Source: Bradyrhizobium sp. AUGA SZCCT0283 (GTDB lineage Bacteria; Pseudomonadota; Alphaproteobacteria; Rhizobiales; Xanthobacteraceae). From it: 64,000 bases of DNA. Both the position numbers and the translations under genes were made by a program. Positions 23,660-44,844 of the stretch are shown piece by piece. The stretch covers positions 1 to 64,000 of the forward strand of contig NZ_JAFCLU010000013.1 of assembly GCF_018130385.1 (NCBI RefSeq), given 5' to 3'. The notes under the pieces are model-generated. The model worked only from the letters and a program-made list of their open reading frames with translations, ran no database searches and was not told the origin of the DNA. Each line of letters begins with the position of its first letter. Position 1 is the first letter of the stretch.

Positions 23660-23695
23660 TTGTCCAAGAGCGAAGTGGCTTTGCCCAAGAGGGAA
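23660..23695 (+). promoter_or_regulatory. Direct-repeat operator upstream of pqqA (shared with xoxF)
   Basis: Two 15-bp direct repeats, TTGTCCAAGAGCGAA (23660-23674) and TTGCCCAAGAGGGAA (23681-23695), are separated by 6 bp, giving a 21-bp period. Nearly the same pair occurs in reverse orientation upstream of xoxF (44809-44844). The 15+6 geometry is that of XylS-type AraC-family sites. A weak -10-like hexamer GGTATG lies about 21 nt after the proximal repeat. Predicted binding by the AraC-type protein encoded at 43572-44540 is inference. Confidence 0.65.
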
Positions 23696-23778
23696 GTTTC
23701 TGGCGTCAGATGCGTCGGTATGCCGTCAACATCGGATGTTCCGTGCTTGCGCTACGTTCGAGGTCAACCTAGTTTTGA

Positions 23779-23803
23779 TGCTGGCACGAACCTCGTGCCA
23801 GCA
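23779..23803 (+). other. Strong hairpin in the pqqA leader
   Basis: Perfect 11-bp arms TGCTGGCACGA (23779-23789) and TCGTGCCAGCA (23793-23803) with loop ACC, ending 19 nt before the pqqA ATG and just before its ribosome-binding region (GGGAGAAA). It could stabilise the short pqqA message, control translation, or act as a DNA operator. No known family was recognised. Confidence 0.55.
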
Positions 23804-23822
23804 CTGCTTGGGAGAAACCCTG

Positions 23823-23903
23823 ATGAGTTGGAAAACTCCGAAGATTGTGGAAGTGCCGGTGGGCATGGAAATCAACATGTACGCCTGCGCGGCGCGTCAA
23901 TAG
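23823..23903 (+). CDS. pqqA: Pyrroloquinoline quinone precursor peptide PqqA
   Basis: 26-residue ribosomal precursor of PQQ. The sequence MSWKTPKIVEVPVGMEINMY continues with ACAARQ and contains the invariant E-x3-Y core: Glu16 and Tyr20 are the residues joined by PqqE and then cut out to make PQQ. GGGAG lies about 9 nt upstream of the ATG. It is a stand-alone copy; no pqqB, pqqC, pqqD or pqqE gene is in this window, so the modifying enzymes must be elsewhere. Its product would become the cofactor of the XoxF dehydrogenase at 44942, with which it shares an upstream repeat pair. Confidence 0.93.
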   Translation: MSWKTPKIVEVPVGMEINMYACAARQ

Positions 23904-23920
23904 ACGCGTCGAAACGGTCT

Positions 23921-23958
23921 GCCCGGCTCCGGCAACAGTCTGTTGCCGCGGGTCGGGC
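23921..23958 (+). terminator. Stem-loop after pqqA
   Basis: Inner perfect stem GGCAACA (23931-23937) / TGTTGCC (23941-23947) with loop GTC, and an outer stem GCCCG (23921-23925) / CGGGC (23954-23958), begin 18 nt after the pqqA stop. No T-run follows. It may end or protect the short pqqA transcript. Confidence 0.5.
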
Positions 23959-24187
23959 AAGCTGTACGATCCCCCGGGAAGTTCTTCAGCCTCCAGCAAG
24001 AGCAGAACGCGGATCCTGCCAAAAAAGTGGACAGGAATCCCTGTAGACGGCCGCCGGAAGGCGATCCGGTCTCTCTCCCGCCTGTATCCACATGTTCCCA
24101 TGGCTCGCCCACGGTCCCCGCATCATGCTAGGGTGTGTCGTCGGCTGACGCCGACGGACTTGCCCGTTCAACCCCGTGACCCGCTGA

Positions 24188-25060
24188 ATGCGAATGCCTC
24201 CGCGTGCAAAGACTTTCCAGGCGGCGGTCGTGTCTCTTGCAGCGCTGCTGCCGGCCTGCGTCCACGCCGAGGGCATCGATACCGAGCATCTGTTCGGCTT
24301 CATGATCGGCACCGACGTCGGCAATGTCGGCGAACGGGAGTTTCAAAGCGAGACGACAGGACGCTTCGGCAAGAACGGCGGCCGTTATCGGGCCGTCGGC
24401 CAGGAGTTCGAACTGGAGTTCGTGCCGGCCCGGAATTTTCGCATTGAGATCGGAAGCACGTTTGCGTCGCATCTGATCAGTGGCGTGCCGGGCCTTGACG
24501 ATCAGCGCCGGCTATCGTGGCAGGGCGGGTCGCTTGATCTCCGCTACCGGTTTCTCGATCGGGAAACGGCGCTATTCGGGCTTACTTTTGCGGCGGAAGC
24601 GCACGCGCATCGGGTCGACGAGACGACGGCGGAAACGGTCCGCAGTTTCGGGACGGAATTCCGGCTGGCGTTCGACCGGGAGCTCGTGCCGAACCGTGTC
24701 GTCGCGGCGTTCAACCTGATCTACGAACCGGAGTGGACGCGCGTTATCAGCACTGGCGTGATGGAGCGGGAATCCACCGCAGGAGCGGCGCTTGCGGTCA
24801 TGGCGCAGGTGCGTCCAGGTTTCCTCTTGGGTGGTGAAGCGCGTTACCTGCGGAAATACGAAGGGACCGGTTTGGAGGAACTGGCAGGGCAGGCGTTGTT
24901 TGTCGGCCCAACGGCATATTTCCAATTGTCGAAACGCTCGCGGCTGACCGCAAGCTGGAGCGTTCAGGCGTGGGGGCGTCCGGCGGGGTCATTTGCCAGC
25001 CTTGATCACGTCAATTTCGAGCGCCATCAGGCCCGGCTGGTGTTCGGCGTTAATTTCTAG
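24188..25060 (+). CDS. Exported beta-barrel-like protein, function unknown
   Basis: 290-aa protein with a probable signal peptide (hydrophobic stretch FQAAVVSLAALLPACVHA, cleavage near residue 27). The mature part consists of alternating polar and hydrophobic strands (FELEFVPARNFRIEIGS, LDLRYRFL, AAFNLIYEPEW, ARLVFGVNF) and ends with a C-terminal Phe, all typical of outer-membrane beta-barrels. No catalytic motif is seen. Ribosome-site support for the ATG at 24188 is poor and 24194 is an alternative. It may be an outer-membrane channel of the methylotrophy region; that is a guess from position. Confidence 0.65.
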   Translation: MRMPPRAKTFQAAVVSLAALLPACVHAEGIDTEHLFGFMIGTDVGNVGEREFQSETTGRFGKNGGRYRAVGQEFELEFVPARNFRIEIGSTFASHLISGVPGLDDQRRLSWQGGSLDLRYRFLDRETALFGLTFAAEAHAHRVDETTAETVRSFGTEFRLAFDRELVPNRVVAAFNLIYEPEWTRVISTGVMERESTAGAALAVMAQVRPGFLLGGEARYLRKYEGTGLEELAGQALFVGPTAYFQLSKRSRLTASWSVQAWGRPAGSFASLDHVNFERHQARLVFGVNF

Positions 25061-25196
25061 GGCTGGCGGCGACTTGGAGCCGGCCGCGTCTGCGCGGCCC
25101 GGTTCCCGACTTTCACGGGGTAGTGAAACTTTGACCCACCCGCTACCGTAGCTTTTTTGCGTTATCAATTCGGGAGCAATTCAAGGGGTGTCTGCC

Positions 25197-25433
25197 ATGA
25201 CTGCGATAGATTTGATCGTGACCGTCTGTGCGGTGCTCTCGCCGACCACCTGCGAGGAAACCCATCTGGTCTTTTCTTCAGATGTTTCATTGCGGCAGTG
25301 CGTCATGGCTGCGCAGCCCTACATCGCGCAGTGGGTTGGCGAGCATCCGAAATGGACCGCGGTCAAATGGCGTTGCGAATATCCACGTAACAACCAAAAG
25401 GCATTCCAGGATGCCGTGTGGTCCGCAGGCTGA
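25197..25433 (+). CDS. Small cysteine-containing protein, function unknown
   Basis: 78-aa protein, MTAIDLIVTVCAVLSPTTCE onward, with four cysteines and a hydrophobic N-terminus that could be a short signal or anchor. AAGGGG lies 8 nt upstream of the ATG at 25197; a GTG at 25188 is less well placed. The WTAVKWRCEYP stretch near the end suggests a folded domain. The family is not recognised. Confidence 0.5.
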   Translation: MTAIDLIVTVCAVLSPTTCEETHLVFSSDVSLRQCVMAAQPYIAQWVGEHPKWTAVKWRCEYPRNNQKAFQDAVWSAG

Positions 25434-25461
25434 ATAATCGTTGGCGAGAAGGCTGTCGCGG

Positions 25462-25806
25462 CTACTTGTTGCAGTCCTTCAAATCCTTGTCCGCGATCGA
25501 AAACACGGCGTCGGCCTTGATCTCGATGCCGCGCGCAAAGCAATGTTTCGAGCCGCGATAGCCGACCCTGGCATCATAGCGTCCCGGCTCCACCCCCGTG
25601 ATGCGCAGGCGTTCGTCGTGGTCGACTTCCTTGTCCTTGTCGTTCAGGGTCTGGTTGGGGCCCCAGTCGTTCTTTCCGGCCGGGGAAAGCTGAAACTCCG
25701 AAATGGTCGCGGTGGTCAGATTCCACAATCGGATGCCTTTTCCCTGCGCGGCCACTTCATCGGCGCTCGCTGACAACAGGGCCACCAAAGCCAGGGGCCA
25801 TCGCAT
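25462..25806 (-). CDS. Exported protein, function unknown
   Basis: 114-aa protein with a signal peptide (MRWPLALVALLSASADEVAA, cleavage near AAQ at residue 21). The mature part has a small beta-sandwich-like pattern: IRLWNLTTATISEFQLSPAG, WGPNQTLNDKDKEVD, RITGVEPGRYDARV, and Cys residues at about 90 and 112 that could form a disulfide. AAAGGA lies 7 nt before the ATG. It is periplasmic by prediction; no enzyme motif is present. Confidence 0.65.
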   Translation of the reverse strand: MRWPLALVALLSASADEVAAQGKGIRLWNLTTATISEFQLSPAGKNDWGPNQTLNDKDKEVDHDERLRITGVEPGRYDARVGYRGSKHCFARGIEIKADAVFSIADKDLKDCNK

Positions 25807-25841
25807 CGGGCAATCCTTTCATCGCGGCGCGTTTAGAGCCG

Positions 25842-26636
25842 TCACTGCTTGATCAGGCGGTCTCGATTTTTTGCCTTATCGAAATTTCTTGCCCGGTCGA
25901 GGCCGATGGGGGCAATCAACTTGGCTGAATCGAGATCGGCGCCATCGAAATCGGTATCGATGACGGTGATACTGGTCAAGTCGGCTCCCCCGAGCTGGGC
26001 TCCCTTGAGAGAAGCACCCGTGAGGTCACAGCCCTTCAGCGTGGCAAACTCAAGATCGACGCGGGACAGGTCGGCGCCGCGCGCGTTCAGCCGTTCCAGA
26101 TTGGCGGACTTCAGAATTGCGCGCATCAGGCCCATCGATTGGTTGCGCATGTCGGCGCCCAAATTTGCTCCTGCGATCGAAGCTCCGACAAGACTCGCGC
26201 CGGTGAGATCGGCAGCGATGCGTGCTTCCGAGAGATCGGCACCGTCGAGGCGGGCGCGAACCATCTGCGCGGCGAACAGGTTTGCGCCCTTCAGGCTTGC
26301 GTCGGTGAGGTCCGCCTCGAGTAGCCATGCCTGGTCGAGGATGGCACGGTCGAGTCTGGCGCCGGCGAGCTTTGTCCTGTTGAGCCGTGCCGCGCGGAAA
26401 ATTGCGCTGGACAAATTGAGCCCGGAGAGGTCGAGGCCGGATAATTTCTTCCCCGTGAAATCGGCGGGCGCGGCGATGGTCGCCGCGGCGAGCGCTGCCT
26501 CGACCTCTCCGCGGGTCATTTCGGCCGAGACCATATCGGGTGACGACAGGTCCACATGACGCATCATGTCCTGCGCCATTGCCGTCATGGTCACAAGAGC
26601 AAGACCGAGGGCTGCGGTTCCGATCGAGCGTTTCAT
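25842..26636 (-). CDS. Exported pentapeptide-repeat protein
   Basis: 264-aa protein: a signal peptide (cleavage after AMA near residue 21) followed from about residue 60 to 250 by A(D/N)Lxx pentapeptide repeats, for example LSGLDLSGLNLSSAIFRAAR and LTDASLKGANLFAAQ, which fold as a right-handed quadrilateral beta-helix. Such proteins act as binding scaffolds, and no catalytic residues are expected. GAGAGG lies 6 nt before the ATG at 26636; the frame continues to a TTG at 26642. It is encoded next to the taurine-type ABC genes on the same strand. Its partner is unknown. Confidence 0.8.
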   Translation of the reverse strand: MKRSIGTAALGLALVTMTAMAQDMMRHVDLSSPDMVSAEMTRGEVEAALAAATIAAPADFTGKKLSGLDLSGLNLSSAIFRAARLNRTKLAGARLDRAILDQAWLLEADLTDASLKGANLFAAQMVRARLDGADLSEARIAADLTGASLVGASIAGANLGADMRNQSMGLMRAILKSANLERLNARGADLSRVDLEFATLKGCDLTGASLKGAQLGGADLTSITVIDTDFDGADLDSAKLIAPIGLDRARNFDKAKNRDRLIKQ

Positions 26637-26683
26637 CGTCAACCTCTCCGATGATGTATCCTAGCACCGGCCTCAAGCGCTGC

Positions 26684-27412
26684 CTATGCGCTATCCCGCT
26701 TGGGGAGATCGCCATTGATCCGCCGCATGACGTCCAGTTTGATGGCGGCGATCTCGGCGTCTCCGCGCTCGCCGCGCGGTGTGCGGATAGGCAGTTCGGC
26801 GAGAACCCGAGCCGGGCGCGGCGACAGCAGGAACAGGCGGTCGCCGAGGCGAACCGCGTCGTCCACGTCATGGGTAACCAGCAGCGTTATCATGGAGCGG
26901 TTGTCCATCAACATGGCAATCTGATCGCGCATACGGGCGGCGAGGGCGGCATCGAGCGAGGCCAGCGGTTCGTCGAGAATGAGGAAATCAGGCTCGACGG
27001 CGAACGCACGGGCGAGCGCAACGCGCCGCGCCAGACCTAGCGATAGTTCGCCGGGAAAGTGGTTGCGATGCGCTTTCAATTCCAGAATCTCGAACAGCGC
27101 TGAAAGCTTCGCTTCATCGGCCAAGGGCGCAACAAGTCGCACATTTTCTTCGACCGACCGCCAGGGCAACAGCCGCGGTTCCTGGAAGACGAAGCCGATC
27201 CGCGCGCCGGGGGGGCGCGAGACGCGCCCTTGAAAGTCGGGGTCGAGGCCGGTGAGAATCCTGAGCATCGTACTCTTGCCGCAGCCGGATGGACCGACGA
27301 AGACGCCTACTTCTCCGGCATCAAGCGCAAAGGAGACGCCGGCGATCACGTCGTGCTGTTCGCCCGCCGCGTTCTTGAACGTCTTGCTGGCGATATCGAC
27401 CTCAAGCCGCAC
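26684..27412 (-). CDS. ABC transporter ATP-binding protein (nitrate/sulfonate/taurine type)
   Basis: 242-aa ATPase of the TauB/SsuB/NrtD class: Walker A GPSGCGKST, Q-loop GFVFQEPRLLPWRSV (the PWR form is typical of this class), signature LSLGLARRVALARA (with Gly-Leu replacing the canonical GGQ), Walker B DFLILDEPLASLD and H-loop VTHDVDDA. The start is placed at GTG 27412, giving an 11-bp overlap with the permease gene, because the longer frame to 27466 lies in the permease gene and lacks homology. It works with the two genes upstream (27402-29115). The transported compound is unknown. Confidence 0.82.
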   Translation of the reverse strand: MRLEVDIASKTFKNAAGEQHDVIAGVSFALDAGEVGVFVGPSGCGKSTMLRILTGLDPDFQGRVSRPPGARIGFVFQEPRLLPWRSVEENVRLVAPLADEAKLSALFEILELKAHRNHFPGELSLGLARRVALARAFAVEPDFLILDEPLASLDAALAARMRDQIAMLMDNRSMITLLVTHDVDDAVRLGDRLFLLSPRPARVLAELPIRTPRGERGDAEIAAIKLDVMRRINGDLPKRDSA

Positions 27413-28139
27413 GGGGACGCCACCGGGATAGCCGGGCCTCAAATGGCTGCACCAACAAGGTTTCAATAAGGAGCACGACCGCTGCGAAGCTCAGCGAATA
27501 GGCAAGCAATAGCGGAATGTCGAACAGCTGGAACGCCACGCCGATCTCGAAACCAACACCGTTCGGACGTCCGAGTAATTCCGCAACAAGGACGATCTTC
27601 CAGACCAGGGAAAGTCCTGATCGCGAGGCGGCTGCGATATAGGGCGACAGTTGCGGTAAAATGACGTGCCGGAACTTCTTCCAGCGTGGCAACGCAAATA
27701 CCGTCGCCATTTCGTCAAGCGCCGCGTCGAGGGCACGCGCCCCTTCGCGCAGCGTAACGACGGCGGTCGGGAGCTTGTTGATGGCGATTGCCGCAATAGC
27801 GGCGACTTCAGTCAATCCAGCCCAGATGTAGGCGAGCACGATGACCACGAGCGCCGGCAGGTTGAGCAGCAGGATCAGCCAGGGGTCGCCCAGCCGATCG
27901 GCAAGCCGTGCCCGGCCCATCAGGTATCCGATGGCGGCGCCCAGTGTCATCGCCAGCGTGAAGGCGAGCGCAACGCGCGCCAATGTCACGCCGAGATGGA
28001 AGAATAAGTCACCTGACCTCGCTTCCGAAACCATGGCCGTGAAGACGGTGGGGGGAGGTGGCAGCTTCGCGTCGCCGGCAAACAGCGAGGCGATCCACCA
28101 GGTTGCAAGCAGCACGGCGAATGACAGCAGGCGCGGCAC
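27402..28139 (-). CDS. ABC transporter permease (nitrate/sulfonate/taurine type)
   Basis: 245-aa inner-membrane permease with about six segments. The EAA loop ALDAALDEMATVFALPRWKK and following ILPQLSPYIAAASRSGLSLVW are typical of SsuC/TauC/NrtB permeases. The frame is open to 28370, but a GTG at 28139 follows GGGAGG and lies one base after the binding-protein stop, so I start there. It overlaps the ATPase gene. Confidence 0.82.
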   Translation of the reverse strand: MPRLLSFAVLLATWWIASLFAGDAKLPPPPTVFTAMVSEARSGDLFFHLGVTLARVALAFTLAMTLGAAIGYLMGRARLADRLGDPWLILLLNLPALVVIVLAYIWAGLTEVAAIAAIAINKLPTAVVTLREGARALDAALDEMATVFALPRWKKFRHVILPQLSPYIAAASRSGLSLVWKIVLVAELLGRPNGVGFEIGVAFQLFDIPLLLAYSLSFAAVVLLIETLLVQPFEARLSRWRPRAA

Positions 28140-28140
28140 C

Positions 28141-29115
28141 TCAGCCTCCCGGGATCGCGTGATAGAATGTTCCGGGATCGAGTTCAGGCGCCGGCCCGAC
28201 AAGTTCGCGGCCGCCGATGTCAGCCAGCACGCGGTAGAGAATGCGCGCGTCGGCTTCCTCGTCCGCCACCGGGCGACGCGGAATTCCCTCCCGATAGCGG
28301 TCGCGATAGGCGCGCAACGTTGCGGCGTCGGCAGCGCCGGTGAGTGGCGCAATTTTCTCCCACTCCGCATCCGAAGTCGACAGGATCTCTTTCGCCGCGC
28401 GGGTCATGGCGATGAAGCGGGCAATTTTGTCCTGGTTTGCGTTCGCCCATTTTTCGTCGAAGACGTAGCCGATCATCGCGGTGCGGCCCTTGGCGCCGAG
28501 TTTCGGCAGCAGGTCCTCGATGCCGGCGATGCGGCGAAAACCCTTCGCTTCCAGTGCGGCGCAGAAATTCCAGTAGTTCAAGGTCGCATCCATTTCCCCG
28601 CTGAGCGTCTTCGCAGCCAGCAGCGGTGGCGCACCGTACGCAATTGTCGCGTCCGACTTCAGGTCGATGCCGCCCTGCTTCAACCACGCCAGCAGCAATA
28701 GCCAGCTCTTGTCGATCGGACCCCCCGCGACGGCGAGCTTGCGGCCCTTGAGTTCGGCCAAGCTCTGGATCGGCGATGAGGCAGGTACCATCACGGCGCC
28801 GAGCGCGCTCGAATAAGGATAGAAGGTCAGCTTGGCGCCAAGCCCGCGTTCGCGTGACACCCAAAGCCAGTCGGTGACTACAATGTCGGCATTCCCGGCC
28901 CGAAGCGCGATCTTGCCCGCCTCGGGGCTCGCCAGCTCGAGAACGTCAACCGAAAGGTTGGCCTGCTTGTCGAGGCCGTGCGCACGGATGACTGCGAGTT
29001 CCCAGGCGAATGTTCCGGTCTTCTGCACCGCAACGCGTAAAGCCTCGGCGCTGCAGCACGTGCCGAGCAAGACCGAGACAATCGTGGCGAGCAGCATGCG
29101 AACAATAAAATTCAT
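28141..29115 (-). CDS. ABC transporter substrate-binding protein (NMT1/SsuA-like)
   Basis: 324-aa periplasmic binding protein. Signal peptide MNFIVRMLLATIVSVLLGTC with cleavage near SAEA (residue 24), then a type-2 periplasmic fold: LRVAVQKTGTFAWELAVIRA, ELASPEAGKIALRAGNADIV and DATLNYWNFCAALEAKGF. ATG 29115 has AAGGG 5 nt upstream; the frame continues to 29181. It faces the small exported protein at 29201. Position inside a PQQ/methanol region suggests uptake of something useful there (a cofactor precursor, chelate or C1-sulfonate), but the ligand is not predictable from sequence. Confidence 0.82.
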   Translation of the reverse strand: MNFIVRMLLATIVSVLLGTCCSAEALRVAVQKTGTFAWELAVIRAHGLDKQANLSVDVLELASPEAGKIALRAGNADIVVTDWLWVSRERGLGAKLTFYPYSSALGAVMVPASSPIQSLAELKGRKLAVAGGPIDKSWLLLLAWLKQGGIDLKSDATIAYGAPPLLAAKTLSGEMDATLNYWNFCAALEAKGFRRIAGIEDLLPKLGAKGRTAMIGYVFDEKWANANQDKIARFIAMTRAAKEILSTSDAEWEKIAPLTGAADAATLRAYRDRYREGIPRRPVADEEADARILYRVLADIGGRELVGPAPELDPGTFYHAIPGG

Positions 29116-29200
29116 GGTCCCTTGAGCCGTTTCTTCGAACGTCCGCTTTTCTGTGGGACAGTCATAGCATAGCTTCCACAATTACCAGCGGGAGGAAACG

Positions 29201-29560
29201 ATGACGCTTGTCGGATCGGTACGACCTATTGTCGCCGCGTTGATGGCGCTGATGACGATGGCAGTGGCCACGCACGCCCAGGACTTCAACGATTATCCGA
29301 CGTCGGCGCGCGTCGAATACGCGTTTGGCTGCCTGAAAGCAAATGGCGAGACGCGGCAGGCGATCGAGCAATGCTCCTGTTCGATCGATGTTATCGCTTC
29401 GCTCGTGCCTTTTGAGCGCTATGTCACGGCCGAAACCGTGCTCAGCATGTCGCAGGTCCGGGGAAATCTGGGCGGGCAGTTCCGCACATCAGAGCAGGCG
29501 GCAAGCGCGCTCAACGAACTCAGGCGGGCCCAGGCCGAAGCGGAAGTGCGTTGCTTCTGA
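29201..29560 (+). CDS. Small exported cysteine-containing protein, function unknown
   Basis: 119-aa protein with a signal peptide (cleavage after HAQ near residue 27) and four cysteines: FGCLKANG, EQCSCS and a final RCF. GGGAGGAAACG is ideally placed before the ATG. Mature residues are helical in character (SARVEYAFGC, QAASALNELRRAQAEAEV). Proteins of this size and Cys pattern accompany quinoprotein gene sets, but I cannot assign a function. It is the first plus-strand gene facing the ABC binding-protein gene. Confidence 0.7.
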   Translation: MTLVGSVRPIVAALMALMTMAVATHAQDFNDYPTSARVEYAFGCLKANGETRQAIEQCSCSIDVIASLVPFERYVTAETVLSMSQVRGNLGGQFRTSEQAASALNELRRAQAEAEVRCF

Positions 29561-29580
29561 GGTGCTGCACGCGGCCTGCG

Positions 29581-30399
29581 TCAAATCCCGGAATCGTCGA
29601 TCTTCCATTCGCGCTGGAAGACGTGTCCCTCGGTATCCTTGGCCTCGGCGCGGAAAGTTTTCGCGCCATTCGAGACGTAGGTGAACCTGATATTGGGATC
29701 TTCCGAAATTGAAATGCCGCCTTCCATCGTCAACACCAGGCTGTCGTCCTGCCAAAGCCGCAGTTCGTTGACGAAGAATGCCGGGACATAGAGTTGCGTG
29801 ACCTGGTCCATCTGCAGGCCGGAATTGTTGGGATGTCCGATCATGATCTGGGCCTCGCGCGCGCCGCTGGCGGAGCCTTCACCGGCTCTTCCGAACTGCC
29901 GGTAGCGCATCTGGCCTAATCTGCCCTTGGCTTCGTCGGCGTTCTTGGCGGCGGGCGCCGAGCAGCCGCCGGACGCCTTCACATAGGTCTTGGTCATGTA
30001 AAGTTTGCCGTCGCTGAGTTCGGCCACCGCATGAACATCGGTGTAATTGTTGACGCGGACGCGGGTGGAGATCTCAGACACTTTGGCGTCCGGCCCGAGC
30101 TGGAATTTGGCCGCCATCGGCGCGGGGTTCTGGTCGATGACCAGCGTAATGCTCAGCACCTGCCTGCTGTCGCCGGGCGACAGCTTCGTTCGCAAGGTCA
30201 CCGGCACGATGGCGGCGTCCTCGGCGCGGGACGGCATTTCGACGGCGATCACGTCGCTGCCATCGTTCATCGGACGGTTGTTGAAGATGTCCTGAACCAG
30301 GCCGGGCCAGGGGTCGTTCGCCTCTGCCGCACGCGCCGGCGGCGCGCCGAACAGGAACAAGCCAGCGACGACGGACAGGCGGAAAAGAGATCCGGGCAT
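29581..30399 (-). CDS. Quinoprotein dehydrogenase-associated SoxYZ-like carrier protein
   Basis: 272-aa periplasmic fusion protein. A signal peptide ends near ARAA (residue 25). The N-terminal half is SoxY-like, ending in SGGCSAPAA, whose Cys is equivalent to the sulfur-carrying Cys of SoxY. The C-terminal half (about residues 170-272, QIMIGHPNNSGLQMDQVTQL and later) is SoxZ-like. Free-standing SoxY and SoxZ carry thiosulfate intermediates; the fused form occurs with PQQ dehydrogenases instead of sox genes, and its cargo there is undetermined. It lies beside the metallohydrolase gene on the same strand, 54 nt downstream of it. Confidence 0.87.
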   Translation of the reverse strand: MPGSLFRLSVVAGLFLFGAPPARAAEANDPWPGLVQDIFNNRPMNDGSDVIAVEMPSRAEDAAIVPVTLRTKLSPGDSRQVLSITLVIDQNPAPMAAKFQLGPDAKVSEISTRVRVNNYTDVHAVAELSDGKLYMTKTYVKASGGCSAPAAKNADEAKGRLGQMRYRQFGRAGEGSASGAREAQIMIGHPNNSGLQMDQVTQLYVPAFFVNELRLWQDDSLVLTMEGGISISEDPNIRFTYVSNGAKTFRAEAKDTEGHVFQREWKIDDSGI

Positions 30400-30453
30400 G
30401 CACCACCTTTATGCGGATGGAAGCAACGAAAGCAATATAGGGCAATGCGCGTG

Positions 30454-31377
30454 CTATTCCCATTCAATTTCCGAAAATGCTGCGGTTGCGTTGCGGGTGT
30501 TGAAGTCATCGAACAACTCCCATCGGGATCGCTCGGAGCCCGCTGCGGTGCCCGCCGCCGTGATCGGCTTGCCGCTTGTGACGAGCCCGCGTACGTCTGA
30601 CGCCAGCGTCTGGAGATAGCGGCGCTCGTCGGCGAGGGCGGCCGGCCATCCGCTCACCGGACCGTGACCGGGGACCACGCGTTGCGCGGGCAGGGCGCCG
30701 AGTTCGCCCAGTACGCCCAGCCAGCCGCGGATGCTGCCGTCCAGCACGGGTGTGTGGGCCAGAAACACCAGATCGCCCGCAAACAGGGTTCCGGTTTTTT
30801 CATCGAGTACCGTGAGATCGCAATCGCTATGCGCGGCGGGCCACGCCCGCAACACAAGGGTTCGTGCGCCGAGATCCAGGTTGAGGCTGCCGCTGACCAG
30901 CAGCGTTGGCGGCACGATGCGTATTTCGTCGATCAACTGATCGCCCATGGTCCGGCGAAATGCATCGAGATAGAACTGTCCGCGCGCGGCCAGCGCGCGT
31001 GGCAGGTTCGCATGGCCGACAAAGGTCGTTCCGTTCTGCACGAAAGCGCCGTTGCCGAAAACGTGATCGGGGTGGCCGTGTGTATTGATGACGTACCGGA
31101 TTGGCTTGCCGGTCCGGGCACGAATAGCCGCCATCAATTGTCGCCCCTCGCGGAGGCTGCCACCCGTATCGATCACCGCGACCGCGTCCTCGCCGACGAT
31201 GAAACCGACATTGGCAATCGCGCCGCCGTTCTCACGCGTCATCTGCGCGGTTTGGCCGTTGTGCACGAACACGCCATCCACAATGGAATTGACGGGCAAC
31301 TCCTGTTGCTGTGCGCGCGAGGCTGTTGCTGTAGCGAGCATCGCGAGCGCGGCCATGATCAATGCGGCACGAGCCAT
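30454..31377 (-). CDS. Quinoprotein relay system zinc metallohydrolase (SoxH-related)
   Basis: 307-aa exported metallo-beta-lactamase-fold hydrolase. Signal peptide [20 protein letters not shown] (cleavage near RAQ, residue 22), then the zinc motif THGHPDH (about residues 99-105), GHANL and AHSDCDL carrying further ligands, and [11 protein letters not shown]. It resembles the SoxH/PqqB-like group that accompanies quinoprotein dehydrogenases. GGAGG lies 8 nt before the ATG. It is encoded directly upstream of the SoxYZ-like carrier gene, suggesting that it acts on the carrier-bound group. Confidence 0.85.
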
Positions 31378-31613
31378 ATTTCGGCCTCCGTCTCATCACG
31401 AAGCGCTATCGGAAATTCCATGTGTCATCGCGGTTCGGTTTGCGCCGCAGCACGGGCGACGACTCCGCTATGGGGATTATTCCTGTTGCAGGCTCCAAAT
31501 GACAAGCTTAGCATTTTGCTGGTCTGCGGCTTCAACGGAACTTGGTTCGTCGGGGTTGCCGATATTTTTCCGAAGTTGGCAACCATGGTGGGCCGGAAGT
31601 GCAGCAGCTTTTG

Positions 31614-33070: not shown

Positions 33071-33205
33071 ATCGGGACACAAAATCGCGAAAACAACCCC
33101 ATGCAAAGTAGAATGGGCCCGGGGCTCGCAGCACTCAGGCCGCTTGCGTCCGGGGCACGAGAGAGTCCGTCGTCACAGCCCGACCTAATCTCATCCTGCT
33201 GGCGA

Positions 33206-37646: not shown

Positions 37647-37750
37647 GGCTCCTCCCTGACAGGTCTTCTCGACTTCCCCGCATCGAAGACCGTTGGCTTG
37701 AACCATGACCGAATTGTCTTGGCTTGCAACTCAATTCTGTCGGGACGGCT

Positions 37751-38596
37751 TTAGCCCTTCAGGCGCTCCGCGTGCCAGCGCAGATGATCGGACATGAACG
37801 TGGAGATGAAGTAGTAACTGTGGTCATAGCCGGGTTGCCGGCGCAGGTTGAGGGGGATCCTGGCTTTCTCGCATGCGGCCTGCAGCAGTTCCGGGCGGAG
37901 CTGTTCGGTCAGAAACGGATCGGCATCGCCGTAGTCGACCAATAGATCGGATACTCTGGCGCCATCCTCGATCAACGCAACCGTATCGTGCTTGCGCCAT
38001 GCTTGCCGGTCGCTGCCGAGATAGCCGCCGAGCGCCTTGATGCCCCATGGCACCTGCGAGGGAGCGACGATCGGCGCAAACGCGCTTGCTGCGCGATAGC
38101 GGTCGGGATGGCGCAGCGCGACCGTCAGTGCGCCATGGCCACCCATGGAGTGGCCGAGAATGGATTGTCGGTTAGGGTCGACGGGAAAATTTTCGGCGAC
38201 CAGTTTCGGCAATTCTTCGGTGACATAGCTCCACATGCGGTAGTTGCGCGCGAACGGCGCCTGCGTCGCATCGACATAGAAACCGGCGCCTAGCCCGAAA
38301 TCGTAGGCGTTGGCGGGATCGCCGGGCACGCCTTCGCCGCGCGGGCTGGTGTCGGGCGCAACGAAGACCAGTCCAAGCTCAGCGCAGGCGCTGCGGAATT
38401 CGCCCTTTTCCGTCACATTGGCGTGGGTGCAGGTCAGGCCCGAGAGATACCAGACCACCGGCAGCCTGGCGCCGGCGGCGTACGGAGGGACATAGACCGA
38501 GAAGGTCATGTCGGTCCCGGTTTCGCGGCTGGCGTGTCGATAGACGCCCTGCGTTCCGCCATATGACTTGTTAAGCGAAACGGTTTGCATGGTCAT
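37751..38596 (-). CDS. fghA: S-formylglutathione hydrolase
   Basis: Serine hydrolase (281 aa) splitting S-formylglutathione to formate and glutathione, the last step of glutathione-dependent formaldehyde oxidation. Catalytic Ser150 is in SILGHSMGGHGAL; the conserved LSGLTCTHANVTEKGEF near residue 51, the catalytic Asp in DYGDADPFL and the His in GYDHSYYFI are present. It works with the dehydrogenase at 47407 and Gfa at 48550, although it sits 10 kb away on the other strand between the Lut-like operon and the two-component genes. Confidence 0.94.
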   Translation of the reverse strand: MTMQTVSLNKSYGGTQGVYRHASRETGTDMTFSVYVPPYAAGARLPVVWYLSGLTCTHANVTEKGEFRSACAELGLVFVAPDTSPRGEGVPGDPANAYDFGLGAGFYVDATQAPFARNYRMWSYVTEELPKLVAENFPVDPNRQSILGHSMGGHGALTVALRHPDRYRAASAFAPIVAPSQVPWGIKALGGYLGSDRQAWRKHDTVALIEDGARVSDLLVDYGDADPFLTEQLRPELLQAACEKARIPLNLRRQPGYDHSYYFISTFMSDHLRWHAERLKG

Positions 38597-38630
38597 GATC
38601 TCTGGACTCCTGCGCCGCGCGGCAATTCTC

Positions 38631-39251
38631 TCACGCTACGCCGCTTTCGATTGCCAGCCGTACCAGTTCGGCGGAAGTTCGTACACCGAGCTTCTGGCGC
38701 ATGATCGACGACGTATTGGCAACCGTCTTGTACGAGGAATGAACCATCCACGCGATCTCGGAAAGGCTCTTGCCCGCGCTGAGCAGGCGCAGGATCTCCA
38801 TCTCCCGCGAGGTGAGCTTGGAAAGCGGGCTGCGGGCAAATGCCGGTCCGGCAAACGCGATGCTTCGCGCGATCGCGGAGGGCAGATAGACCCCGCCTTT
38901 GCCGACTTCATGGATGGCCTCGACCAGATCCTGCGGATCACCGGTCTTGGCGACATAACCCTTGGCGCCGATTTCAATGGCGCGCGCGGCGAAGACCGGA
39001 TCGTCGTTCATGCTGAACATGATGATCCGAGCGGAAGCGGTGTGCGCAAGAATGCGCCGCGCCAATTCGAACCCCGACACGGTCGGCAGGTTGATATCGA
39101 TCACACAGATGTCGGGGTGCTCGGCGACGAACACGCGTTCGCCGCTCTCAGCGTCGGCGGCCTCCAGCAGCACGATCTCCGGCTCGTCGGCAAACACGGT
39201 ACGGCAGCCCGAAGCAACGATGGGATGATCGTCGACGATCAGAACACGCAT
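38631..39251 (-). CDS. NarL/FixJ-family response regulator
   Basis: 206-aa two-component regulator. The receiver domain (residues 1-120) has VLIVDDHP with the acidic pocket, phospho-acceptor Asp in CVIDINLP (about residue 52) and the conserved Lys in GAKGYVAKTGD. The LuxR-type helix-turn-helix is at about residues 140-200 (LTSREMEILRLLSAGKSLSE, then SYKTVANTSSIMRQKLGV). It is divergent from the kinase gene at 39437, its likely partner. Kinase-regulator pairs of this kind (for example MxbD/MxbM) control methanol dehydrogenase genes in other methylotrophs. Confidence 0.92.
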   Translation of the reverse strand: MRVLIVDDHPIVASGCRTVFADEPEIVLLEAADAESGERVFVAEHPDICVIDINLPTVSGFELARRILAHTASARIIMFSMNDDPVFAARAIEIGAKGYVAKTGDPQDLVEAIHEVGKGGVYLPSAIARSIAFAGPAFARSPLSKLTSREMEILRLLSAGKSLSEIAWMVHSSYKTVANTSSIMRQKLGVRTSAELVRLAIESGVA

Positions 39252-39436
39252 TGCATCGATCCCCGAGCTGCTTCAGTTTCGTTGCTGCATTGCGTCAGGC
39301 GGTACCTGCGCCGGCGCGAGGCCGACCATGCAACGCCAGCGAGATTGCTGTACGCTTCAATCTGATCGTCGGTTTTTCGACTGTCAACGGTCCTCTCGAC
39401 CGGGGAGCTGATTGCGACGCGATTGGGGCAAACCTC

Positions 39437-40789
39437 ATGTGGCAGAAATTATCGTTGCGGGCCCGGATCAATTTGCTGCTGGCGCTGGGTTTGACGCTCG
39501 GCCTGGCCATCAATATCGCGCGGCTGGTGGTGGAGGCGGGCCCTCGTGTTCGAGCCGAAGATCAAAGTGTCATACGGCTGGCGCGCGAATTCGTGGAGAC
39601 GATCGTTCCCGGCCTTAACGAGGCGCCGGACCCGGACGCGCGGCTGAACCAGATCGTTCGCGACCTGAGCCGGCTTCGGCACGTCAGTATCACGCGGCAG
39701 GGCGATACCTCCACAGGCGAGCGCTCCGGTAACGGCGACGACGAACGGTCGCCGCCGGCCTGGTTCATCGCGCTCGTTCATCCGGAAACGACCGCCGTGA
39801 GCGTGCCGATCACCATCCATGGGAGGCCGCAGTCGCTGGTGATCACGTCGCACCCGAACGATGAAATGGCCGAGATATGGGACGGAATCATCACCCAGCT
39901 TGCGGTCAGTTCCGCCCTCGCCATCGCACTCTTTCTGATTACCATGATGGTGGTTGGCCGCGCGCTGGCGCCGCTGCGGGCACTTTCGCAAGCCATGGCG
40001 AATATCGAGGCCGGGCACTATGGTTCACGCGTCGAGCCCGGCGGCGCGCCCGAACTGGCGGCGATCTGTGCCAAGCTGAACCACCTTGCTGGCGCCCTCG
40101 GCGAGGCCGTCGAAGACAAGCGACGGCTCGCCGAACGCACGGTCTCGCTGCAGGATCTCGAGCGCAAGGAGATCGCGCGCGAATTGCATGACGAGTTCGG
40201 GCCATATCTCTTTACGCTGCGCGCCCACGCCGGCGCCCTGATGCGGCTTTCGGAGGACGGGCGCGCGCCCGGCGCGGATGCACTGCGCAAACATAGCACC
40301 GCCATCCTGGAGCAGATCAATGCGCTGCAGCAGTTCAACCGCAGGATACTGGAGAAGCTGCGGCCCGTCGGGCTGGCGGAGCTTGGATTGCGCGAGGCGC
40401 TCGGCGTGCTCTTGCGGTTGTGGCGGGAATCACGTCCCGACGTAACTATTGATGCGAACATTGCGTCCGCGCCTGATGAGACCGGAGAAGTCACCGACTT
40501 GACGGTTTACCGCATCGTTCAGGAAGCCCTGACAAACGCCTTCCGCCACGCCGACGCGACCTCCGTCACCGTCACGGTCGAACAGGCTGCGGGAATGCAT
40601 GGAAATCGTGGTTGCGCCCTGGTGCGCGTCAGCGATAACGGTCGCGGTTTGGCGCCGGATCACAAGTTCGGCTTCGGCCTGATCGGTATGCGCGAGAGAA
40701 TACTGGCGCTGGGCGGTACGCTGAATGTCGTCTCCGGCAACGGAGGTGTCACGGTAGAAGCGGTCGTTCCCCACGGATCGCAGCATTGA
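39437..40789 (+). CDS. Sensor histidine kinase (NarX-type, HisKA_3)
   Basis: 450-aa membrane kinase. TM1 is at about residues 10-30 (INLLLALGLTLGLAINIARL), a periplasmic sensing loop at 31-152, TM2 at about 155-175 (AVSSALAIALFLITMMVVGR), then HAMP (APLRALSQAMANIEAGHYGS). The HisKA_3 phospho-acceptor box is LERKEIARELHDEFGPYL, and the ATPase domain has NAFRHADA, SDNGRGLAP and GFGLIGMRERI. ATG 39437 is used; the frame is open from 39251. The partner is the divergent regulator at 38631. The signal (methanol, formaldehyde or lanthanide) cannot be read from the sequence. Confidence 0.9.
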   Translation: MWQKLSLRARINLLLALGLTLGLAINIARLVVEAGPRVRAEDQSVIRLAREFVETIVPGLNEAPDPDARLNQIVRDLSRLRHVSITRQGDTSTGERSGNGDDERSPPAWFIALVHPETTAVSVPITIHGRPQSLVITSHPNDEMAEIWDGIITQLAVSSALAIALFLITMMVVGRALAPLRALSQAMANIEAGHYGSRVEPGGAPELAAICAKLNHLAGALGEAVEDKRRLAERTVSLQDLERKEIARELHDEFGPYLFTLRAHAGALMRLSEDGRAPGADALRKHSTAILEQINALQQFNRRILEKLRPVGLAELGLREALGVLLRLWRESRPDVTIDANIASAPDETGEVTDLTVYRIVQEALTNAFRHADATSVTVTVEQAAGMHGNRGCALVRVSDNGRGLAPDHKFGFGLIGMRERILALGGTLNVVSGNGGVTVEAVVPHGSQH

Positions 40790-40815
40790 TGGGTCGAAGC
40801 GCCATCCGGGAATTT

Positions 40816-40835
40816 CTCCCGGTCTCTTTCGGGAG
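40816..40835 (+). terminator. Candidate terminator after the histidine kinase gene
   Basis: Stem CTCCCG (40816-40821) / CGGGAG (40830-40835) with an 8-nt loop, 27 nt after the kinase stop. The stem is short and no T-run follows, so confidence is low. Confidence 0.3.
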
Positions 40836-40948
40836 GAATGCATTTCGGGAACCAGACCTTTTGCAGCTAGCGCGTCGTTGCCTTCTCACTAGTATCGTCC
40901 GCTAACCGGCATCCGAAATGCAGCGGGGATGGAGTGGGGTGGGGGCAT

Positions 40949-43375
40949 ATGGGCGTACGCTTGTTGCTGGTCGGGACAATCTCGATATGCGTCGTTCCCG
41001 GGATCGACTATGCCCAGGCCCAAACTGCGTCCGGCGATAGCGAGGTCTTGCCGGCCATCGAGGTCGTCGCCCCGGCCACAGTTGCCAAACCAGGCCGCAG
41101 CAAAAGAGCGCCTCAGGCCGCCAGGAACTTGCGCAGAGTTTTTGTCTATCCGACCGCGCCCACGACGACAGCCAGTTCGGGGATGGATGTCGACAAAGTA
41201 CCGGCAAGCGTCAACGCGGTCGGGGCAGGGCAGATCGCGCGGACCGGCTCGCTCAACATCGCGGATGCGCTGCAGCAACAGGTACCTGGCATCATCGTCA
41301 GCGACACGACCGGCAATCCATTTCAGCCGGACATACAGTTCCGTGGCTTTGTCGCATCTCCCGTCGCCGGTACGCCCCAGGGGCTCGCGGTCTACCAGAA
41401 CGGGGTGCGCGTCAACGAAGCGTTCGGCGACACCGTCAACTGGGACTTGATCCCGACGGCTGCGATCAGGTCGGTCACGGTCGTGACCAACAATCCCGCG
41501 TTCGGCCTCAACGCCCTGGGCGGGGCGGTCAACGTGCTGATGAAGAACGGCTTCAATTACCAGGGTGCCGAAATCAACACGATGGGCGGTTCGTTCGGGC
41601 GTATCCAAAGCTCGGCGCAGTGGGGCAAGCAGATCGACAATTTTTCCGTCTATGGGGCGCTGGAGGGACTGCGCGACGGCGGATTCCGCAATTTCTCTGA
41701 ATCAAAGGTCCGCCGCTTCTATGGGGATGTCGGCTACAAGACCGACAGCAGCGAATTCCATCTCAACATGGGCGTCGCCAGTAACAATTTTGGCGCGGCA
41801 GCGACGGTGCCGGTTGAATTGCTCCGGAACTACTGGGGGGCGACCTACACCACGCCGCAGACGACAGCCAACCGCGTTGGCTATGTCAATCTGACCGGAA
41901 AAATCGAGGCTACGCCGACCTGGACGATCGAAGGTTCGGCGCACGTCCGGGCATTCCAGCACAAGACGGTGGATGGCAATCCGACCGCGACCCAGCCATG
42001 TGCGCCCCCCAACGACACGCTGCTTTGCTTTAACGACGACAGCAGCTTTGCAAATGGCGTCAACGGAGTTCCGATCGTAAATCCCTTCCCAACCGACGCC
42101 GTGCTGGGGCAGATCGACCGGACAACAACCCGTTCGACGACGACCGGGGCGACGTTGCAAGCCACCAACACCGACCAGCTATTTGGGCACAACAACCAGT
42201 TCATGGTCGGCGCCAGTTTCGATTCCGGCGTCACCCGCTTCGGGGCCAGCGCCGAATTGGGCACGATCGGCTCAAACTACGTCGTCAGCGGTAGCGGCGT
42301 ATTTCTCGGACCGTCCGGCACTCCGATTTCGATCGGTCCGGTCTCGCTTCGCGCCACCAACCGTTACAGCGGACTCTATGCGCAAGACACGTTCGACGTG
42401 ACGGACGCGTTTTCAATCTCGGGCGGCGGCCGGTTCAACTATGCAAGCATCAACCTTGAAGATCAGATTGGCACCGCGCTCAACGGCAATCATACGTTCA
42501 GCCGCTTCAATCCGATGATCGGCGGCACCTACAAGATCACGCCGGAACTGACGGCCTATGCGGGGTATTCTGAAGCCAATCGTGCACCGACCCCGCTGGA
42601 GCTCGCATGCGCCGACCCTGCGCGCCCCTGTATCATCGGGGCCTTCCTGATCTCGGATCCGCCGCTGAAGCAGGTCGTATCCCGTACCGTTGAGGCCGGT
42701 TTGCGCGGCACCAAGGAGCTGAATATCGGAACGCTCGGGTGGAAGGTCGGCGCGTTCCGCGCGACCAATGCCGATGACATCCTGGCGATTCCCGTCCCGT
42801 TGCAGGGTTTTGGCTACTTCCAGAACGTGGGCAGGACACGGCGCCAGGGCATCGAGGCCCAAGTCAATCTGACGTCGAAGACGCTGCAACTCTATGCCAG
42901 CTATGCCCTCGTGGATGCGCGCTTCCTCGACGCCTTGGAGCTCAACTCCCACAGCCCGTTCGCCGATCCCGTCACTGGCACTATCCAGGTCCTGCCGGGC
43001 AACCGCATCCCCGCGATCCCGCGCAACCGGGTCAAGCTTGGCTTCGACTATTCAGTCACCGACGCTTTCAAGGTCGGCGGCGACGCGTTGTTCGTCGGCA
43101 GCCAGTATTTTGTCGGCGATGAATCCAACCAGGCGGCGAGGCTGCCAGGGTATTCGGTTTTCAACCTGCACGCCTCGTACCAGATCAACAAGACGTTCCA
43201 GATCTATGGCCGCATCGACAATATCTTCGACAATCGCTATGCGACCTACGGGACGTTCTTCGATGCCGGTGACGTACCCAATTTCGCCAATGGCGGCGTG
43301 CAGTTTACTGACGCCCGCTCCGTAAGCCCGGCGCGCCCGCGTGCCTTCTATGCAGGGCTAAAGGCGACCTTCTAG
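40949..43375 (+). CDS. TonB-dependent outer-membrane receptor (candidate lanthanide/chelate receptor)
   Basis: 808-aa outer-membrane transporter. Signal peptide MGVRLLLVGTISICVVPGID with cleavage near AQA, a plug domain at about residues 75-190 (ADALQQQVPGIIVSDTTGNP, DIQFRGF, NPAFGLNALGGAVNVLM), then a 22-strand barrel ending in the typical Phe (GLKATF). I start at ATG 40949; the frame also offers GTG 40934. Its place between a two-component system and the AraC-xoxF genes, with a Lut-like ABC operon nearby, parallels the Methylobacterium LutH receptor, so uptake of a lanthanide chelate is likely. Siderophore uptake is the main alternative. Confidence 0.88.
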   Translation: MGVRLLLVGTISICVVPGIDYAQAQTASGDSEVLPAIEVVAPATVAKPGRSKRAPQAARNLRRVFVYPTAPTTTASSGMDVDKVPASVNAVGAGQIARTGSLNIADALQQQVPGIIVSDTTGNPFQPDIQFRGFVASPVAGTPQGLAVYQNGVRVNEAFGDTVNWDLIPTAAIRSVTVVTNNPAFGLNALGGAVNVLMKNGFNYQGAEINTMGGSFGRIQSSAQWGKQIDNFSVYGALEGLRDGGFRNFSESKVRRFYGDVGYKTDSSEFHLNMGVASNNFGAAATVPVELLRNYWGATYTTPQTTANRVGYVNLTGKIEATPTWTIEGSAHVRAFQHKTVDGNPTATQPCAPPNDTLLCFNDDSSFANGVNGVPIVNPFPTDAVLGQIDRTTTRSTTTGATLQATNTDQLFGHNNQFMVGASFDSGVTRFGASAELGTIGSNYVVSGSGVFLGPSGTPISIGPVSLRATNRYSGLYAQDTFDVTDAFSISGGGRFNYASINLEDQIGTALNGNHTFSRFNPMIGGTYKITPELTAYAGYSEANRAPTPLELACADPARPCIIGAFLISDPPLKQVVSRTVEAGLRGTKELNIGTLGWKVGAFRATNADDILAIPVPLQGFGYFQNVGRTRRQGIEAQVNLTSKTLQLYASYALVDARFLDALELNSHSPFADPVTGTIQVLPGNRIPAIPRNRVKLGFDYSVTDAFKVGGDALFVGSQYFVGDESNQAARLPGYSVFNLHASYQINKTFQIYGRIDNIFDNRYATYGTFFDAGDVPNFANGGVQFTDARSVSPARPRAFYAGLKATF

Positions 43376-43501
43376 AGCATGATCCGGAAAAGTGGGTATC
43401 GGTTTTCCGAAAAGATCATGCTCAAATCAAAGAGATAGAGCGGGATGACGATTCGAAGAAAAGTCATCGCGCTCTAGGCCAGCGAAACGGCTTGCCGTTT
43501 C
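43375..43501. repeat. Cluster of interspersed palindromic (REP-like) elements
   Basis: Three consecutive inverted repeats fill the gap between the receptor and araC genes. The first has outer arms GAGCATGATC (43375-43384) / GATCATGCTC (43414-43423) with a nested CGGAAAA / TTTTCCG; the second has arms of 14 bp with one mismatch (43436-43449 and 43463-43476, beginning TAGAGCG); the third is GAAACGGC-TT-GCCGTTTC (43484-43501). The first resembles a palindrome I associate with repeated elements in Bradyrhizobiaceae genomes. It may also serve as a bidirectional terminator between convergent genes. Confidence 0.7.
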
Positions 43502-43571
43502 CATTACCCGACGGGAGAGGCGCCGTTGATGCGCGGCAAAACATCGTTGCCGCAACCGGGACGTTCCGTTT

Positions 43572-44540
43572 TCAGGAAACGTCCGGCGCCGGATCGGCGC
43601 AGTGCGCCTTGTGGATGGCGGAGGGAACGAACCCGAAATGCTTCCGGAACACTCGGCTGAAGTGCGACGAACTGGAAAAGCCCCACGAAAATGCGACATC
43701 CGTGATCGTCTTGCCGTGCTGGGTCTCCAGCTCCTGCCGGCAGTGCATCAACCTCGCCCGCCAGATGTAATCGCTGACGGTCATGCCCTTGTCGCTGAAC
43801 AGCATGTGCAGATAGCGCTTGGTGCAGCCCAATGCCGCCGAGATCTGGTCGATGCAAAGATCCGGGTCGCGCAAATGTTCGCGGATGAAGGCCTGAGCCC
43901 GGATGTACATCGCCTCGGGACCGACGCGATCGAACATCGTGTCGGCCTCGCGCAGCGGCAACAGCAAGAGATCGATCAGCGAATCAGCGACGCCGATGGC
44001 GTTGTAGGGCGACAGCCTGTTCGCTTCGTCAAACGCGGTGTGCACGAAGTCGTAGGCGATGCGGCCGGTGCCGTTACGCGCAGAGAGCTTGCACGGCAAC
44101 ATCTTCGCCGTGCGGAAGCCGCGTTCGTGCAGCAGTTCCTTTGGGACGATCACGACCTCGTGCCGGGTCAGCGAGGGGCTGACGATCGTGTGCGGACACG
44201 AGACGTCATAGGCGAGGCAATCGCCGGGCATGATGTCGATGCGACGGCCGCCCTGTTCGAAATGCGAGATGCCGTAGGTCTGGAACAGTATCTTGACGTA
44301 GGGATGTTCGCTCAGTTTTGTGCCTGAGACCGTGTGCGCGATGCGATGCTGGCTCGCCTCGATCTGACACAGTTTCAGCTGCGAGACGGTTGTGTAATTT
44401 ATCCGCCCCTCGAGCGAAGAACCTTCCAGCGGATCGACGTCAAACTGGCCGCAGAGATCGGTCAGAGCATCTGACCAAGTTTGGATCTGCTTCTTCGGCG
44501 CCAACCCGGACGTGCTGAGTGAGCGGACTGTATGGGACAT
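43572..44540 (-). CDS. AraC/XylS-family transcriptional regulator
   Basis: 322-aa regulator. The N-terminal 200 residues look like the AraC_binding_2-type ligand domain of XylS-like proteins (DVDPLEGSSLEGRINYTTVS, PYVKILFQTYGISHFEQGGR, MPGDCLAYDVSCPHTI). The C-terminal AraC domain has two helix-turn-helices: DLCIDQISAALGCTKRYLHM and KTITDVAFSWGFSSSSHFSR followed by FRKHFGFVPS. It is divergent from xoxF with 401 bp between the starts. A 15+6+15 direct-repeat site typical for this family lies in that region and recurs before pqqA, so I predict it activates both. A hairpin (43559-43584) overlaps its 3' end. Confidence 0.9.
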   Translation of the reverse strand: MSHTVRSLSTSGLAPKKQIQTWSDALTDLCGQFDVDPLEGSSLEGRINYTTVSQLKLCQIEASQHRIAHTVSGTKLSEHPYVKILFQTYGISHFEQGGRRIDIMPGDCLAYDVSCPHTIVSPSLTRHEVVIVPKELLHERGFRTAKMLPCKLSARNGTGRIAYDFVHTAFDEANRLSPYNAIGVADSLIDLLLLPLREADTMFDRVGPEAMYIRAQAFIREHLRDPDLCIDQISAALGCTKRYLHMLFSDKGMTVSDYIWRARLMHCRQELETQHGKTITDVAFSWGFSSSSHFSRVFRKHFGFVPSAIHKAHCADPAPDVS

Positions 44541-44808
44541 GGTCCAAGCACCGATTCGAGAACAGGCCGCGACCTCGCAAAAGCTTCGGTCACAGGACGC
44601 TACATTTGACTCAACTTAAGGCGGTCCCAGGGAAGTCGCGCAGATTCTTCCCAATATCCCTTTGACAATCCTCCAACTTAGTTTCGGCTGCGTCAAGGGG
44701 AACCTCAATCTCGGGACGCGCGGGTGCTTGTGGGAACAAGCCCACGATTGATGCTTCGCAGCATGAGAAGAGGCTCCCGACGGTCAAAAATTAAAAAGTT
44801 CATTGTGT

Positions 44809-44844
44809 TTCGCTTTTGAGCAAACGCGGTTCGCTCTTGGGCAA
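44809..44844 (-). promoter_or_regulatory. Direct-repeat operator upstream of xoxF (shared with pqqA)
   Basis: On the plus strand, TTCGCTTTTGAGCAA (44809-44823) and TTCGCTCTTGGGCAA (44830-44844), separated by 6 bp. Read on the minus strand these become TTGCCCAAGAGCGAA and TTGCTCAAAAGCGAA, matching the pqqA repeats at 23660-23695 at 12-14 of 15 positions. The proximal repeat ends 97 nt before the xoxF ATG, and a GATAGG hexamer at 44864-44869 could be the -10. The presumed binder is the adjacent AraC-type protein. Confidence 0.65.

Follow-up and report, generated by a model that had tools for sequence, protein, structure and literature searches.

The window (the whole 64,000-nt stretch of DNA that was analysed) carries two copies of a 36-bp direct-repeat element, one upstream of a gene for the PQQ precursor peptide and the other in the gap between a methanol dehydrogenase gene and a divergent gene for an AraC-type regulator. 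The names xoxF, xoxG, flhA, gfa and fghA are those we take to apply on the strength of profile models, gene order and general knowledge. The features are as follows.

23660..23695, plus strand: operator at pqqA, TTGTCCAAGAGCGAA-N6-TTGCCCAAGAGGGAA, pointing to pqqA.
23747..23752, plus strand: predicted pqqA -35 element TTGCGC, 51 bp past the operator; a CTTG-type element is kept in relatives.
23770..23775, plus strand: predicted pqqA -10 element TAGTTT, 17 bp past the -35.
23823..23903, plus strand: pqqA, encoding the 26-aa precursor peptide of PQQ (TIGR02107, 46.9 bits, cut-off 20).
38631..39251, minus strand: response regulator of LuxR type (Pfam Response_reg and GerE), belonging to the two-component system nearby.
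39251..40789, plus strand: histidine kinase with a MoxY-type sensor domain (Pfam).
43572..44540, minus strand: araC-type regulator (AraC_binding_2 and HTH_18), divergent from xoxF; proposed binder of both operators.
44668..44696, minus strand: putative core promoter of araC (TTGACG-N17-GAGGAT), suggested by a conserved intergenic block that lies about 110 bp from the operator.
44809..44844, minus strand: operator at xoxF, TTGCCCAAGAGCGAA-N6-TTGCTCAAAAGCGAA, pointing away from xoxF.
44864..44871, plus strand: predicted xoxF -10 region GATAGGAA, with a conserved TA at 44866-44867, 22-23 bp past the operator.
44942..46747, plus strand: xoxF, PQQ-dependent methanol dehydrogenase (TIGR03075, 784 bits).
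46822..47334, plus strand: xoxG-like c-type cytochrome (TIGR03874, 272 bits).

The xoxF gene is the first of the series xoxF-xoxG-flhA-gfa. Its profile, TIGR03075, denotes the PQQ methanol/ethanol dehydrogenase family, and the translation contains the motif WDYDGVN, whose second Asp we take to be the mark of lanthanide enzymes; the product is probably a rare-earth-dependent, methanol-oxidising enzyme. No pqqBCDE genes are found in the 64,000-nt window. Between the kinase and araC genes lies a gene for a TonB-dependent receptor (40934-43375), possibly concerned with lanthanide or PQQ uptake.

The earlier note had described the two elements as an operator shared by pqqA and xoxF, and both 15-N6-15 repeats agree letter for letter with that description in position and strand. 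Its remark that the pair does not recur in the window also holds: a search at up to three mismatches returns two matches, against none in 100 dinucleotide shuffles. The full-genome search it called for gives the same two matches in 8,068,558 bases at this tolerance, and none with the reversed pattern; a looser pattern, again at up to three mismatches, adds two matches over the whole genome, each with three mismatches and unlike the family. The majority sequence of the half-sites is TTGCCCAAGAGNGAA. Across 52 araC-xoxF gaps, taken from named relatives with the AraC protein as the sole criterion and dereplicated from the best 80 of 130 loci, agreement with the window is 86% and 92% in the half-sites, 58% in the spacer and 51% and 66% in the flanks. 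A second comparison (18 pqqA and 33 xoxF loci) gives 84-91% for the half-sites versus 33-66%, a difference that is partly built in, since all 18 pqqA loci and many of the 33 xoxF loci had been selected by the pattern. The gap also contains an inverted repeat, TGATGCTTCGCAGCAT, at 44749-44764, which is perhaps a second operator. This palindrome is kept in some groups (e.g. L086, L087, L089-L091, L093, L096-L098, L100, L122 and L123) and was rejected as the true site, being present in the gap of some groups only.

The protein encoded at 43572-44540 has a C-terminal AraC-type helix-turn-helix region (HTH_18, 71.4 bits, cut-off 33.6; HTH_AraC, 48.9 bits, cut-off 26.6) and an N-terminal AraC_binding_2 domain (50.1 bits, cut-off 27). 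Its best NCBIfam match is FeaR (NF007243), which covers residues 16-309 of 322; the score of 169.2 bits lies below the equivalog cut-off of 199. Matches to solved structures are confined to the HTH region. Among 53 AraC sequences the putative recognition-helix stretches, whose placement is our assumption from general knowledge of the family, are nearly invariant; the sensor domain contains invariant Cys, His and acidic residues, which offer a lead to the inducer and no more. Plasmid records contain no match to the protein at 1e-30.

A scan of named genomes with this protein gave loci of which the best 80 of 130 come from Bradyrhizobium, some MAGs and one Tardiphaga. Among these best 80, xoxF is divergent from araC in 79, the remaining one (L304) having xoxF outside the locus, and the exact pattern stands upstream of araC in all 80, with a spacer of 6 bp in 59 and of 7 bp in 21. 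The number of sites per genome is small, as it would also be if the motif had arisen by chance or from a repeat and played no part in regulation. Against such an origin stand the occurrence in every one of these protein-picked loci, the chance controls, all of which are zero, and the half-sites, which are more conserved than their spacer and flanks; we regard it as having almost no chance of being correct.

Among 195 genomes of the genus, the strict pattern is found in 90, a refined pattern with a 6-bp spacer in 153, and the refined pattern with a spacer of 6 or 7 bp in 185, while the reversed-pattern control gives none. The arrangement is therefore kept in related genomes, with the site in 185/195 Bradyrhizobium genomes. 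With the spacer fixed at 6 bp, 42 genomes were unmatched, 10 of them lacking an AraC ortholog, and the site appeared to have been lost in the other 32. That loss was rejected as mostly an artefact, because the pattern had been fixed at a 6-bp spacer: in araC-xoxF gaps from 15 of the non-matching genomes the repeats are present, 7 bp apart in 14 and, in G152, 6 bp apart with two mismatches. The spacing of 6 bp given in the earlier note is correct for the window; as a general rule it fails, the spacer being 7 bp in a large group and 5 bp at three pqqA promoters (L088, L092 and L095, among further promoters from wide loci).

The AraC protein itself is matched at 1e-40 in 185/195 genus genomes. 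One of these matches (G096, 4.8e-53) was excluded as an ortholog, all others being at 1e-160 or better, which leaves 184 genomes with an ortholog (E <=1e-160), and all 184 have the site. Of the 11 genomes without an ortholog only G034, which is 80% complete, has a site. Close XoxF proteins occur in two of these 11 (G034 and G047), and since the other nine are without one, the genus table by itself is weak, reflecting mostly the loss of the whole cluster. The argument for AraC consequently rests on G047 and on other genera.

A family sample of 296 genomes contains 104 with XoxF, of which 26 belong to the genus. Outside it are 78: 13 with both AraC and site, one with AraC and no exact site, two with a site and no AraC, and 62 with neither (Fisher 6.5e-12, for genomes that are related to each other and hence not independent). 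The single AraC-positive, site-negative case (G304) carries two sites, both of them one base off the pattern. The two reverse cases are G342, in which araC lies in three pieces, and G286, which has a site at pqqA and in which AraC was not found; G274, with an AraC at 46% identity, was scored as AraC-less. Chance should supply about one match in the family sample, by a rough estimate that assumes even base composition, and the reversed control gives none. One 36-bp site that may be due to chance lies in G247 (L246 7275-7310), a genome with no XoxF, flanked by a hydrolase gene and, divergent from it, a gene for a distant AraC relative (27% identity). G236 and G324 have one further match each, with no promoter tied to it, that of G324 being inside another gene.

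For 58 rows, some genes being present in duplicate, the sequence upstream of xoxF (up to 450 bp) was scored with a weight matrix derived from the named loci, against a background of random windows from loci without araC. Where araC is adjacent (38 rows) the scores are 40.2-48.1, and random windows reach at most 17.0. Where it is not adjacent (20 rows) they range from -3.3 to 5.9, except for L225 (44.4), a locus that ends just short of araC; the low score of L238 (G304) arises because its site lies beyond pqqA. xoxF genes that are 88-91% identical to that of the window and have no adjacent araC are without the site. In G236 the xoxF beside araC has a site and the other xoxF has none; in G233 araC and the site adjoin gfa, and xoxF, on another contig, is without one. 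In G304 araC stands beside xoxJ with a one-mismatch site, and the second site precedes pqqA-xoxF. G149 has two xoxF copies (L101 and L225, 88-90% to that of the window), each with a site of its own. G167 has araC but no site within its 15-kb locus. Judged by these comparisons, the site follows araC, and not xoxF, pqqA or the two-component system.

The two-component system has to be considered separately, because it lies close by in the window and because the xoxF regulators named in the relevant part of PMC11845868, a review of regulation by rare earths, are two-component systems. The sites would then be bound by the LuxR-type response regulator (38631-39251) that accompanies the MoxY-like kinase. 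Three matches, and never more, occur in 13/195 genus genomes, so that the pattern is not spread over many unrelated promoters; such a spread is what the earlier note had named as damaging to its proposal. In nine of the genomes (G019, G020, G030, G032, G073, G084, G089, G114 and G184) the third site lies between the kinase gene and the response regulator-fghA genes, where it could serve autoregulation by the response regulator. It has a 7-bp spacer there, points to the regulator gene (L228 5932-5968; L373-L380) and ends 29-31 bp before TTGACA-N17-TCTAAT, by distances counted by hand in the nine genomes; the layout suggests class I. One-mismatch versions are present in G190 and G012, and there is no third site of this kind in G078, G194, G150 or G022, nor in the window. 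G046, G033 and G078 also have a third match, which in G046 looks unrelated. Two genomes, each 99% complete, decide against binding by the response regulator: G029 retains AraC and two sites while lacking a close response regulator (the best match is at 1.2e-66), whereas G047 retains XoxF, pqqA, the kinase and the regulator (3.0e-108) and has neither AraC nor a site. Since the two dissociate in both directions, the sites are separable from the two-component system; in relatives such as G125, moreover, the regulator is about 20 kb from the sites. The response regulator was rejected as the binder on these grounds and is, in our view, very unlikely to fill that role.

The two promoters differ in their relation to the operator. 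A consensus scanner finds no sigma-70 promoter at pqqA or in the xoxF region, and the elements discussed here were recognised by their conservation. Counted from the end of the operator at xoxF, T is found at +22 in 46/47 loci and A at +23 in 46/47, and no recognisable -35 consensus exists at xoxF, which places the operator against or over the -35. The operator abuts the predicted xoxF promoter at a fixed distance to the -10, which is the geometry of class II, and we infer that the xoxF promoter is activated in this mode. At eight sites viewed singly, the TA is kept in five (gfa of G233, pqqA-xoxF of G304, the hydrolase of G247 and both xoxF copies of G149) and missing in three (xoxJ of G304, the kinase/regulator site of G020 and the weak site of G274).

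At pqqA the pair precedes the gene in the gene's own orientation in 19 loci and is followed by a CTTG-type -35 and a CTA-type -10. The distance from the operator to the -35 is 31 bp in four loci, 40-41 bp in two and 50-52 bp in 13 (L112 and L244 were counted by hand, at 51 and 52). These distances step by about one helical turn and suggest a class I mode; the steps are moderate evidence, as independent changes of length are few. In another genus (L230, L234, L236, L237 and L239) pqqA lies directly downstream of araC. In eight loci (L104, L105, L107, L109, L114, L115, L118 and L124) a gene for a second PQQ dehydrogenase, 38-39% identical to XoxF, is situated between araC and pqqA; it has no site of its own in these loci at up to two mismatches.

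Loss of the site at pqqA in relatives, which the earlier note had listed as a possible objection, is partly real: by a hand count, 49 of the 185 site-bearing genus genomes have one exact match. pqqA was located in 45 of the 49, as well as in G043 and G082, and 30 loci, one per genome, were read. The operator is split in 17 of the 30 (13 after dereplication): its half-sites face opposite ways with 149-152 bp between them, and the one closer to pqqA lies 21-22 bp from the -35. A split of this kind might point to DNA looping as the mode of control, as is the case for AraC itself; we hold this reading as speculative. A normal pair is present at pqqA in L264 and a near match in L255 and L258; the other loci of the 30 have no recognisable site at pqqA. 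Among the relatives without one are L105-L107, L118, L120, L229 and L233. A different pqqA adjoins pqqBCDE in 6/6 relatives read, with no exact pair within 10 kb.

The same geometry bears on whether the regulator activates. It might bind both sites and repress, or mainly autoregulate araC, without activating xoxF and pqqA; one site does lie in the araC-xoxF gap and point to araC, and a site set against a promoter also fits repression. However, araC has a conserved promoter-like block of its own about 110 bp away, which by eye is also present in L119, where there is no operator, and the fixed distance is to the -10 of xoxF. The absence of a recognisable -35 at xoxF is expected of an activator-dependent promoter, and at pqqA the site lies 31-52 bp ahead of the -35, at distances that differ by roughly one helical turn, which is a poor position for a repressor. 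We consider repression or autoregulation of this kind improbable.

The earlier note had proposed that one AraC/XylS-type factor, encoded at 43572-44540, acts on both xoxF and pqqA, and this is the reading favoured by co-occurrence and promoter geometry. The observed presence, rarity and conservation of the sites, their co-distribution with AraC and their fixed or stepped geometry are most likely those of a real regulon, with two promoters in the window, run by the adjacent AraC/XylS-type protein. We give a probability of roughly 0.86 to the proposal that this regulator binds both operators and activates xoxF in class II and pqqA in class I mode; binding by AraC, and activation rather than repression, are here deduced from the DNA. 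Two AraC monomers would bind, one per 15-bp repeat, with about two helical turns from repeat to repeat. Bound directly against the promoter at xoxF, they would bring in RNA polymerase in the manner of a class II activator; at pqqA, upstream of a complete -35/-10 promoter, they would work in class I fashion. A single signal, be it methanol, formaldehyde, a lanthanide or another, would in this way raise expression of the dehydrogenase operon together with that of the PQQ precursor peptide, and in some relatives the response regulator-fghA genes would join the regulon. The opposite orientations of the two operators would be explained by the class II layout at xoxF versus the class I layout at pqqA. 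The earlier note had observed this difference correctly and added it as a caution; it is no objection, given that RamA is described as facing one way at class I promoters and the other way at class II promoters (PMC8811837, in excerpt).

The outcome is a candidate regulator with an exact operator and, as targets, two promoters here and a further one in some relatives. It also offers a reason for a pqqA copy separate from pqqBCDE, and a natural series of operator spacing variants. A more speculative extension, which we hold as possible but doubtful, is that the main switch of lanthanide-dependent methanol oxidation in Bradyrhizobium is AraC, as a dedicated one-component regulator, and not a two-component system. 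It would match the supply of cofactor precursor to enzyme demand through the stand-alone pqqA, and in some species, where it would drive the response regulator gene, it would rank over the two-component system.

Lanthanide-dependent methanol growth in Bradyrhizobium has been worked out recently, as excerpts of the commentary PMC12997859 and of PMC12628762 describe. A word search of the main text of PMC12628762 returned none of the terms regulator, promoter, transcription, AraC and pqqA. For B. japonicum, an excerpt of PMC4070659 describes an mxaF' operon with a cytochrome, flhA and gfa, and the induction of formaldehyde genes by vanillate. No report of an AraC regulator for xoxF or pqqA was found in the open-licence literature searched, where the excerpts of PMC5606694, PMC12573494 and PMC8963497 were of unrelated content.

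The regulator is best read as an AraC/XylS-family activator with a XylS-like operator. It resembles FeaR, also of the AraC family, in its best NCBIfam match, and differs from it in falling under the curated cut-off. XylS recognises two 15-bp direct repeats 6 bp apart. As at the XylS-controlled promoter Pm of the TOL plasmid, the window sites consist of two 15-bp direct repeats. The part of PMC5481539 concerned with Pm describes two such repeats and two monomers, in wording that can also be read as 6 bp between boxes; an overlap of XylS with polymerase appears in the title of a reference cited there. The sequences differ, the boxes being TGCA/GGTA at Pm and TTG...AG.GAA here: box A TGCA and box B GGTA are both missing from the half-site majority, so that the layout is XylS-like and the site is no XylS site. 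Pm moreover serves one operon, and XylS responds to benzoates; here a second promoter has its site upstream and in the opposite orientation, and spacers range between 5 and 7 bp.

The two-component systems MxbDM, MxcQE, MxaY/MxaB and PedS2R2, which control xoxF and pedH (PMC11845868, in the part cited above), share with the present case a lanthanide-linked PQQ dehydrogenase as target, and differ from our candidate binder, which is AraC-type and one-component. RamA is a single AraC-family factor that acts upstream of one promoter and, probably facing the other way, near -41 of a second (PMC8811837, in the same excerpt). RamA-type proteins use one marbox where two repeats are found here, and the site sequences differ; the dual layout proposed for pqqA and xoxF resembles that of the class I and class II promoters of RamA, MarA and SoxS.
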